Origin: Frigoribacterium sp.
Lineage (GTDB): Bacteria > Actinomycetota > Actinomycetes > Actinomycetales > Microbacteriaceae
NCBI GenBank assembly: GCA_025363205.1
Contig: JANYEI010000081.1
Location: 1-58,837, forward strand
Length of the DNA stretch: 58,837 bases
Direction: 5' to 3'
In this document: piece by piece, positions 16,006-55,629 of the stretch
Layout: the number at the start of each line of letters is the position of its first letter
Position numbering within the stretch: the stretch's first letter is position 1
The notes under the pieces: generated by a model
Databases searched by the model: none
Seen by the model: the letters and a program-made list of their open reading frames with translations, nothing else
What the model was told of the DNA's origin: nothing
Translations under genes and position numbers: made by a program

Positions 16006-16088
16006 TGCCGGTGGTGGGACTCGAACCCACACGCCCTTTCGAGCAAAGCATTTTGAGTGCTCCGCGTCTGCCATTCCGCCACACCGGC
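16006..16088 (-). tRNA. tRNA-Leu (anticodon CAA)
   Basis: Read on the - strand, the acceptor stem GCCGGTG pairs perfectly with CACCGGC and the discriminator is A. The anticodon loop CTCAAAA carries CAA (reads UUG) on a 5-bp stem GAGCA/TGCTT. A long variable arm, typical of leucine tRNA, and a T-arm with GGTTCGAGTCC follow. The 3' CCA is not encoded. The gene is 83 bases long. Confidence 0.95.
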
Positions 16089-53471: not shown

Positions 53472-54398
53472 ATGGACGTAGCGGTAGAAACTCGGCAGCT
53501 TGGCGAGCGAATCGGCTTCGCCCGCAAGTCGAAGGCCTATCTCGCTCTGACCAAACCCCGAGTCATTGAACTGCTTCTCGTGACGACCGCACCCGTGATG
53601 ATCCTGGCGCAGGGTGGCATTCCGAATCTCTGGCTCATGCTGTGGACTCTCGTCGGTGGTGCGCTCAGCGCGGGATCCGCTGGCGCCTTCAATTGCTACA
53701 TTGACCGGGACATGGACCGCGTGATGAAGCGCACGAGCAAGCGCCCGTTGGTCACGGGCGAACTCACCGATCGTGAAGCGCTCGCTTTTGCCTGGGCAAT
53801 AGGCGCGGCCTCGATCGTTGTGCTCGGGCTGCTGGTCAACTGGCTTGCGGCCGCACTGTCCCTCGTCGCCATCCTCTTCTACGTGCTCGTCTACACTCTT
53901 GTTCTCAAGCGCCGAACCCCCCAAAACATCGTCTGGGGTGGCGCCGCTGGCTGTATGCCAGTGCTCATCGGCTGGGCAGCCGTCACTGGGTCTCTCAGCT
54001 GGGCCCCGGTCATCCTGTTCGGCATCGTGTTTCTCTGGACGCCGCCACACTACTGGCCGCTCTCGATGCGTTACCGCGCCGACTACGCGTCGGTGAACGT
54101 TCCAATGCTGGCCGTGGTGCGCGGTCGCACTGTAGTGGGCCTGCAGGTCGTTCTCTACGCGTGGGCGACCGTCGCCTGCTCCCTTCTGCTGATCCCGGTC
54201 GCACACATGGGCATCCTGTACACGGTCGTTGCTGTTCTGGCGGGCGGATGGTTCGTGTTCGAGTCCCATCGCCTGTATTCCATGGCGATCCGCCATGACA
54301 CCGTCAAGCCGATGCGGGTGTTCCACAGCTCAATCAGCTATCTCACGCTGCTCTTTCTCGCGGTGGGCATCGACCCGCTGCTCGCCCTGCTGCGCTGA
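53472..54398 (+). CDS. ctaB: Protoheme IX farnesyltransferase (heme O synthase)
   Basis: It farnesylates heme b to heme O for cytochrome oxidase. The 308-residue membrane protein has about nine helices and the prenyl-diphosphate site [20 protein letters not shown] at about 76-95. A second acidic region ([16 protein letters not shown]) is present. ATG 53472 follows AGAGGAGC. ctaA follows 51 bases after, and the two enzymes act in sequence. Confidence 0.96.
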
Positions 54399-54449
54399 CC
54401 CTTCTGCACTGACCTTTTTTCTGACCCTCGATCCCGGAAGGACCGACCC

Positions 54450-55421
54450 ATCGTCACCCCATTCACCTGGCTGGCCAATCGCTTTACGCTCGGAGAACGC
54501 GCCCTGCGCTGGGGAACGACCGCGGCCCTTGTGGTGAGCGTCTTCATCGTGCTCACCGGAGGTGTCGTTCGCGTCACCGGCTCGGGGCTCGGGTGCCCCA
54601 CTTGGCCGTCCTGCGACGCCGGGTCGTTCACTACGACTCCCGAGTTGGGCATTCACGGCTTCATCGAGTTCACGAACCGAGCGCTGACCGGCGTGCTCAT
54701 TCTCGCCGTCGGTTGGGCGATCGTCGCTGCGCGGCTGCAGAAGCCGCGTAATCGCACGCTCACCCGCCTGGCCTGGTCTCAATTCTGGCTCGTGGTGGCG
54801 AACTCGATCGCAGGCGGAATCTCGGTGCTCACCGGTCTCAACCCCTATGTCGTTGCAATGCACTTCGTGCTGGCGATCGCGCTGCTCACCACGACGACGC
54901 TCACCTGGCATCGTGCCCGGCAGGCCATTTTGGAGCCGACACCGCGCGCAGCGGAGGTGCAGCCAAGGTCCGTGATTCTCAGCGCCCTCCTTGTCGCCAC
55001 CACTTTCGCGTTAATCGTGATCGGCACGCTGGTTACCGGCTCGGGGCAGCACTCCGGCGACTCGGCGGGTGTGCCGCGCATGGGTTTTGTCTGGGCACAG
55101 GTGACGGTGGTCCATGGTGTGCTCGGCACGCTCGTGCTCGTGCTAGCTCTTGCCCTGTTTGGCAGCCTACGGACCCGCGCCGAGACCTCTCTCGCGCGCC
55201 GCCGAGTCGTTATTTTTTTGATTGTCACGGTCGCGCAGGCCGCGCTCGGACTGCTCCAGGCGAACATCGGGGTTCCGGCCGGATTGGTCGCGATCCACGT
55301 GCTCGGTTCCGCTCTCGTCTGGGTGGGGGTCTTGCGGGTGCTGCTCGACGTAAACCCGCGGCTGTTCCGCACGGTTGGATTGCAGGCACCGGTCGAGGCT
55401 GCGGTCAGTATTCACCGCTGA
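54450..55421 (+). CDS. ctaA: Heme A synthase CtaA, with an apparent non-standard start
   Basis: It oxidises heme O to heme A in the membrane. Helices and motifs fit CtaA: VLTGGVVRVTGSGLGCPTW with the cysteine pair CPTWPSC, then HGFIEFTNRALTG and HVLGSALVW with heme-ligand histidines. The first standard start (GTG 54531) would cut the first helix. The open frame upstream reads VTPFTWLANRFTLGERALRW, which looks like real CtaA sequence. There is no ATG, GTG or TTG back to the ctaB stop; GGAAGG lies 8 bases before an ATC at 54450, which I take as the probable start (323 aa). Confidence 0.85.
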   Translation: MVTPFTWLANRFTLGERALRWGTTAALVVSVFIVLTGGVVRVTGSGLGCPTWPSCDAGSFTTTPELGIHGFIEFTNRALTGVLILAVGWAIVAARLQKPRNRTLTRLAWSQFWLVVANSIAGGISVLTGLNPYVVAMHFVLAIALLTTTTLTWHRARQAILEPTPRAAEVQPRSVILSALLVATTFALIVIGTLVTGSGQHSGDSAGVPRMGFVWAQVTVVHGVLGTLVLVLALALFGSLRTRAETSLARRRVVIFLIVTVAQAALGLLQANIGVPAGLVAIHVLGSALVWVGVLRVLLDVNPRLFRTVGLQAPVEAAVSIHR

Positions 55422-55438
55422 TTCGCACCCATCCCCTG

Positions 55439-55444
55439 TAGAAT
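55439..55444 (+). promoter_or_regulatory. Candidate -10 box of the suf operon
   Basis: TAGAAT lies 185 bases before sufB, implying a leader of about 180 bases. No -35 is clear. Confidence 0.4.
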
Positions 55445-55629
55445 CTGCTGGGAAGGCAGTACGCAGCTATGCCACCGTGTCGGCGTTGATACGATCGGCG
55501 CCGTCCATCGGCGTAGACGGTGAAGATTCGCCACTACCGGCGTCCCGCGGAATGACTCCGCTGTGAGTTCGGTTACAGCAGGGGAGAGCCCTGTGATTAC
55601 AGAGTTTTGTGAAAAGGAAGAGGGAAATC
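55445..55629 (+). other. Long structured leader of sufB
   Basis: No gene is supported. It holds a repeated ATCGGCG, a small CCGTC/GACGG hairpin, and at 55556-55585 a stem GCTGT/ACAGC extended by CTCC/GGAG. GGAAGAGGGAAA serves as ribosome site. Confidence 0.4.

Follow-up and report, generated by a model that had tools for sequence, protein, structure and literature searches.

AUC as the probable start codon of ctaA, the heme A synthase gene, in a genus of Microbacteriaceae

Where does translation of ctaA begin at a locus whose reading frame offers no standard start codon at the conserved N terminus? The question is raised by a 58,837-nucleotide stretch of DNA from Frigoribacterium sp. (the window), which is contig 29 of a 264-contig, 3.3-Mb draft genome (G000) and in which ctaB and then ctaA lie on the same strand. 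Judged from its nearest CtaA relatives, the source is a Microbacteriaceae species; the closest named relatives are Frigoribacterium MAG GL140_3 (94% identity) and Frigoribacterium sp. CG_9.8 (81%). A preliminary description, made from the sequence of the window, had pointed out that ctaA lacks ATG, GTG and TTG from the ctaB stop to a GTG at 54531 and that GGAAGG lies eight bases before an ATC at 54450. Both points hold in the window sequence: the frame is open from 54399, and its first canonical codon is that GTG. The features of the locus are as follows.

53472–54398, forward strand: ctaB, heme O synthase, with an ATG start and a TGA stop at 54396–54398 (NCBIfam NF003349.0, 443.7 bits, cut-off 246)
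54399–54449, forward strand: ctaB-ctaA spacer, without ATG, GTG or TTG in any frame
54436–54441, forward strand: Shine-Dalgarno-like GGAAGG, separated from the ATC at 54450 by eight bases (54442–54449)
54450–54452, forward strand: ATC, proposed start codon of ctaA, ATC in 11 of 12 genomes of the genus
54450–55421, forward strand: ctaA, heme A synthase, 323 codons plus TGA (PF02628)
54471–54473, forward strand: CTG, rival start; this column is CTC, CTT or TTA in other members of the genus
54531–54533, forward strand: GTG, first canonical in-frame codon, rejected as the start; its position varies among relatives

The ctaA product matches the Pfam family PF02628 at 77.9 bits (cut-off 29.9), with ctaB adjoining and a haem-copper oxidase in the genome, and it matches the solved heme A synthase 6a2j, from B. 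subtilis, with an E value of 5.4e-13. Its sole NCBIfam match, the equivalog NF045570, did not reach the cut-off (21.4 bits against 550); this model is named for Alphaproteobacteria and tests that subfamily, not membership of the Pfam family. CtaA matches were found in 393 of the 398 sampled genomes of the family and in all 13 genomes of the genus, 12 of which have a single match, and a haem-copper oxidase gene (COX1) is present in all four genus genomes that were checked (G000, G003, G004 and G010). With the oxidase gene present and, in nearly every genome, a single CtaA match, a working CtaA is to be expected. Two kinds of CtaA occur in the family, one like that of the window (E below about 1e-60) and a divergent one of about 40% identity, and G002, although placed in the same genus, has the divergent kind only. 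In G001, for which contamination is estimated at 12%, the ctaA region occurs twice (L011 and L015, on contigs 1 and 3), with equal match scores and identical sequence around the start. On the other side of the window's ctaA, the 208-base gap before sufB (55422–55629) appeared by eye to be rich in inverted repeats; an Rfam scan of the window returned one tRNA only (16006–16088) and nothing near ctaA or within that gap.

Among the 12 genus genomes with an orthologue, the aligned start codon is ATC in 11 (G000, G001, G003–G006 and G008–G012) and GTG in one (G007). G002 (43% identity, a distant homologue) was excluded from this count, the two copies in G001 were counted once, and so were loci L016–L019, which are on the same contigs as G006, G004, G012 and G010. 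These 11 ATC genomes are relatives of one another, some of them closely paired (G010/G012, G009/G011 and G000/G006, for example), and several are fragmented drafts. This distribution supports the use of AUC, which the preliminary description had considered alongside a sequencing error for ATG. The window does come from a draft in 264 contigs; nevertheless, the same ATC is shared by 10 other genomes of the genus, including the two-contig G003 and G004, the latter being the same contig as L017, Frigoribacterium sp. CG_9.8, whose title does not call it a MAG. The shared ATC rules out an error of sequencing or assembly for all practical purposes, leaving it a negligible probability.

The A, the T and the C of the codon are invariant over the 11 ATC genomes, and codon 2 differs among them at its first two positions (GTC, ATC, ACC or CGC). 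ATC is a common isoleucine codon in GC-rich genomes, and the nearby third base at +5 is invariant over the 11 as well, so that invariance of the C is, by itself, weak evidence for a start codon. The variation in codon 2 bears on the idea that another non-standard codon is used. GTC, the codon 2 of 8 of the 11 ATC genomes, would have a precedent in the start of Streptomyces sigR, since GTC starts are described in PMC5472188; however, codon 2 is ATC in G008, ACC in G005 and CGC in G001. Likewise, CTG 54471, which had also been put forward at the outset, is not conserved, its column being CTC, CTT or TTA in the others, whereas codon 1 is ATC in all 11. A start at either GTC or CTG is thus improbable.

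Outside the genus, we compared 62 orthologous loci from 61 genomes, these being the strongest full-length matches; we excluded the contig-edge match in G187, the partial match in G390, the additional copy in G021 and every CtaA of the weaker second kind (E values from 1e-51 upward). ATG, GTG or TTG stands exactly at the aligned site in 35 of the 62 loci and 1–15 codons upstream of it in the remaining 27, and none of the 62 starts at the position of GTG 54531. The 13 other named Microbacteriaceae loci (Rathayibacter, Herbiconiux and others), some of which share contigs with members of the 62, have ATG or GTG at the site; a Streptomyces locus has ATG seven codons upstream of it, and a Propioniferax locus has ATG one codon upstream. 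Among the genomes read, ATC at the predicted ctaA start position is therefore a mark of the genus. The N-terminal sequence NRFTLGERALRW, which the preliminary description had likened to the normal first helix of CtaA, lies in the ctaA frame and indeed aligns with the N termini of orthologues having ATG or GTG at the ATC-aligned codon.

A start further downstream, at GTG 54531 or another canonical codon, would yield a CtaA without its first 27 residues. GTG 54531, as the first canonical codon in frame, is the start that a gene caller recognising ATG, GTG and TTG alone would choose, and the best local match to 6a2j begins at the residue it encodes, residue 28 of the window CtaA. This match starts, however, at chain residue 20 of 6a2j, which therefore has 19 residues ahead of that point, and the match to 8aw5 pairs residue 22 of the window CtaA with chain residue 14; the two structures have 13–19 further residues before the matched start. 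The start point of the 6a2j alignment is, as we assume from the CtaA fold, within the first membrane helix. Moreover, the 27 N-terminal residues are conserved with orthologues having ATG or GTG at the aligned codon, and the GTG itself does not keep its place: the next in-frame canonical codon is at +27 in G000, G003, G004 and G006, at +28 in G008, G010 and G012, at +33 in G009, at +18 in G011, at +11 in G001 and at +77 in G005. A downstream start is on these grounds quite unlikely, about as much so as one at GTC or CTG, with G001 (GTG at +11) and G011 (ATG at +18) as possible exceptions to the lack of a usable canonical codon.

Upstream, the frame of 9 of the 11 ATC genomes is free of canonical codons from the ATC back to its stop; G003 and G004 have their nearest ones inside ctaB, 59 and 63 codons from the ATC. 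Furthermore, all 11 lack ATG, GTG and TTG in every frame over an interval that begins at the ctaB stop and reaches 13 or more bases beyond the ATC. The runs without a canonical triplet in any frame extend over 51–161 nt, and the chance of such a run at a random position is 0.002–0.11 per genome, with the window's own sequence as background and with genomes that are not independent of one another. In the window, the run measures 130 nt from the ctaB stop, for which the frequency at random positions, counted on both strands, is 0.0073.

Because the ctaB stop of the window is in frame with ctaA, a CtaB-CtaA fusion made by stop readthrough or frameshift had to be weighed. The distance from the ctaB stop to the ATC is 51 nt in G000, 80 in G006, 26 in G003, 38 in G004, 28 in G009, 40 in G010, 39 in G008, 40 in G012, 39 in G011, 32 in G005 and 38 in G001 (where two long frames end nearby, the ctaB stop was picked from the CtaB C terminus). 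These distances fall in all three frames, which excludes a conserved fusion and makes this explanation of the window very improbable indeed.

If AUC 54450 is the start, as we favor, the ribosome would need to be directed to it, and the window has a ribosome-binding site at a suitable distance, as do 8 of the 11 ATC genomes, the site being weaker in G001, G005 and G011. G occurs at −10 in 9 of the 11 and at −9 in 8 of the 11. The computed pairing of the window's GGAAGG with an assumed 16S tail sequence, taken without a shuffle control, is −9.0 kcal/mol; on the same basis 8 of the 11 ATC genomes reach −5.9 kcal/mol or better, G005 and G011 both have −5.1 kcal/mol, and G001 has −2.8 kcal/mol, no better than the −2.9 kcal/mol of G007 with its GTG start. 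Predicted mRNA folding around the start revealed no common structure and was unremarkable in most genomes; in G011 the ATC is predicted to be paired.

How the genus came by this codon was examined with trees. In the tree built from CtaA only, nine ATC genomes form one clade and G001, G005 and G007 fall elsewhere, and these data do not reject monophyly of the genus (p-AU 0.25). In the tree from CtaA and CtaB together (68 rows, after removal of those whose CtaB was short or absent and of the two most remote ones), the genus is one clade with support of 100/98.9, on which ATC needs two changes. A clade of the 11 ATC rows without G007 is rejected with p-AU 0.030 (CtaA) and 0.0097 (CtaA and CtaB), so the history needs either a reversion or more than one gain. 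The simplest account would be one gain of ATC at the base of the genus and one reversion to GTG in G007; several independent gains are a possible alternative. In G007 (L013), the ctaB-ctaA spacer is 2 nt, versus 26–80 nt in the ATC genomes. In the Rathayibacter loci read, the ctaA ATG overlaps the ctaB stop, and a coupled ctaA start may have given way in the genus to a spaced one (26–80 nt) with its own Shine-Dalgarno site and AUC.

AUC also appears to serve as a start elsewhere in these genomes. We found infC in 10 of the 12 genus genomes searched, and all 10 (L107–L116) have AAGGAG, six bases, ATC and then AGC GAT CCC CGT. The ATC start of infC was assigned from this Shine-Dalgarno site and from a statement on Streptomyces in PMC5472188; several canonical codons also stand in frame at more distant upstream positions in some of these infC genes. 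Gene callers likely misplace the infC start in these genomes. To gauge how common non-standard starts are, 288 orthologous gene pairs were surveyed in 420 kb of G003 (1.45–1.85 and 2.694–2.714 Mb) against 368 kb of G004 (contig 3 whole and part of contig 4). Of the 288 pairs, 32, ctaA included, were flagged because they lack a canonical start near the conserved coding boundary; read by eye, ctaA alone was taken as real, and in the remaining pairs a canonical start seems to lie later in the gene, the boundary to fall within the protein or the frame to be wrong. Even infC went unflagged, owing to a chance GTG/TTG located 12 codons upstream of its boundary; the survey count is thus too low and is no proof that ctaA stands alone. 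With that limit, the G003/G004 pairs suggest that non-standard starts are rare in the genus.

A special initiator tRNA with the anticodon GAU would explain efficient use of AUC. In G003, where all 45 tRNAs found with the Rfam model were read, no such unusual initiator was among them: there is one tRNA-Ile (GAT), which is followed by, and forms an ordinary pair with, tRNA-Ala (TGC), and there are three CAT tRNAs. Judged from the tRNA set of G003, decoding of AUC by a dedicated GAU initiator thus has hardly any probability, on a par with a sequencing error.

Together, these observations lead us to favor a start of CtaA at AUC 54450, weak and under IF3 control, with a single ancestral gain and a single reversion as the simplest history, a reading to which we assign a probability of roughly 0.88. 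In mechanistic terms, the Shine-Dalgarno site at 54436–54441 would place the initiator fMet-tRNA on AUC 54450, IF3 would reject most of the initiation complexes formed there, and CtaA would be made from a message shared with ctaB, but more slowly than CtaB; a shortage of IF3 would raise the yield of CtaA, as described for infC. The AUC would have been gained in the ancestor of this Microbacteriaceae genus and kept, reverting to GTG in one species. The analysis shows the sequence features, their conservation, the lack of canonical alternatives and the parallel with infC, and we infer initiation at AUC, the shared message, the low yield, IF3 control and any benefit. According to PMC5472188, IF3 destabilises the complexes formed on any codon but AUG, GUG and UUG, and PMC13068326, citing another study, reports ATC as a functional but slow start in E. 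coli; from these two sources low expression of CtaA from AUC is plausible. A bolder and distinctly tentative idea is that ctaA has the same IF3-sensing AUC start as infC, so that heme A supply and maturation of haem A oxidases would follow the ratio of IF3 to ribosomes (in growth, cold or stress); if true, ctaA would be a member of a small IF3 regulon.

An AUC start maintained at the level of a genus, in a gene that has no obvious connection with IF3, would offer a natural test between a role in low expression and IF3 sensing, for which G007, the GTG species of the same genus, provides a ready natural comparison. In practical terms, annotation software that accepts no starts but ATG, GTG and TTG will truncate CtaA here by 27 N-terminal residues. 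Among the titles listed in our literature search, which extended to Microbacteriaceae, to rare start codons and to AUC or other non-canonical starts with IF3, none dealt with a ctaA start codon. infC, which starts at ATC in Streptomyces and at ATT in E. coli, resembles ctaA as proposed here in having an AUC start behind a Shine-Dalgarno site, an arrangement seen in infC of this genus as well; unlike ctaA, which encodes a membrane enzyme, infC encodes IF3 itself and is autoregulated. We know of no link of ctaA to IF3. PMC5472188 gives ATC as the infC start in Streptomyces, describes autoregulation of IF3 and remarks that experimental characterisation exists for very few non-standard start codons. 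Non-standard starts, AUC included, are already known, from infC, from rnhC (PMC13068326) and from sigR with GTC (PMC5472188). rnhC of Listeria monocytogenes resembles ctaA in being a gene other than infC with a fixed ATC start, which according to that paper was confirmed experimentally; it is a different gene in another phylum, and the passages of PMC13068326 on it give no regulatory role. sigR of Streptomyces, as presented in PMC5472188, resembles ctaA as an actinobacterial gene other than infC whose non-standard start is conserved within a genus (GTC in 32 of 34 Streptomyces species) and misplaced by gene callers; it differs in using GTC instead of ATC and in that its repression by IF3 has been proven experimentally. 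Furthermore, sigR precedes its partner gene, whereas ctaA comes after ctaB.
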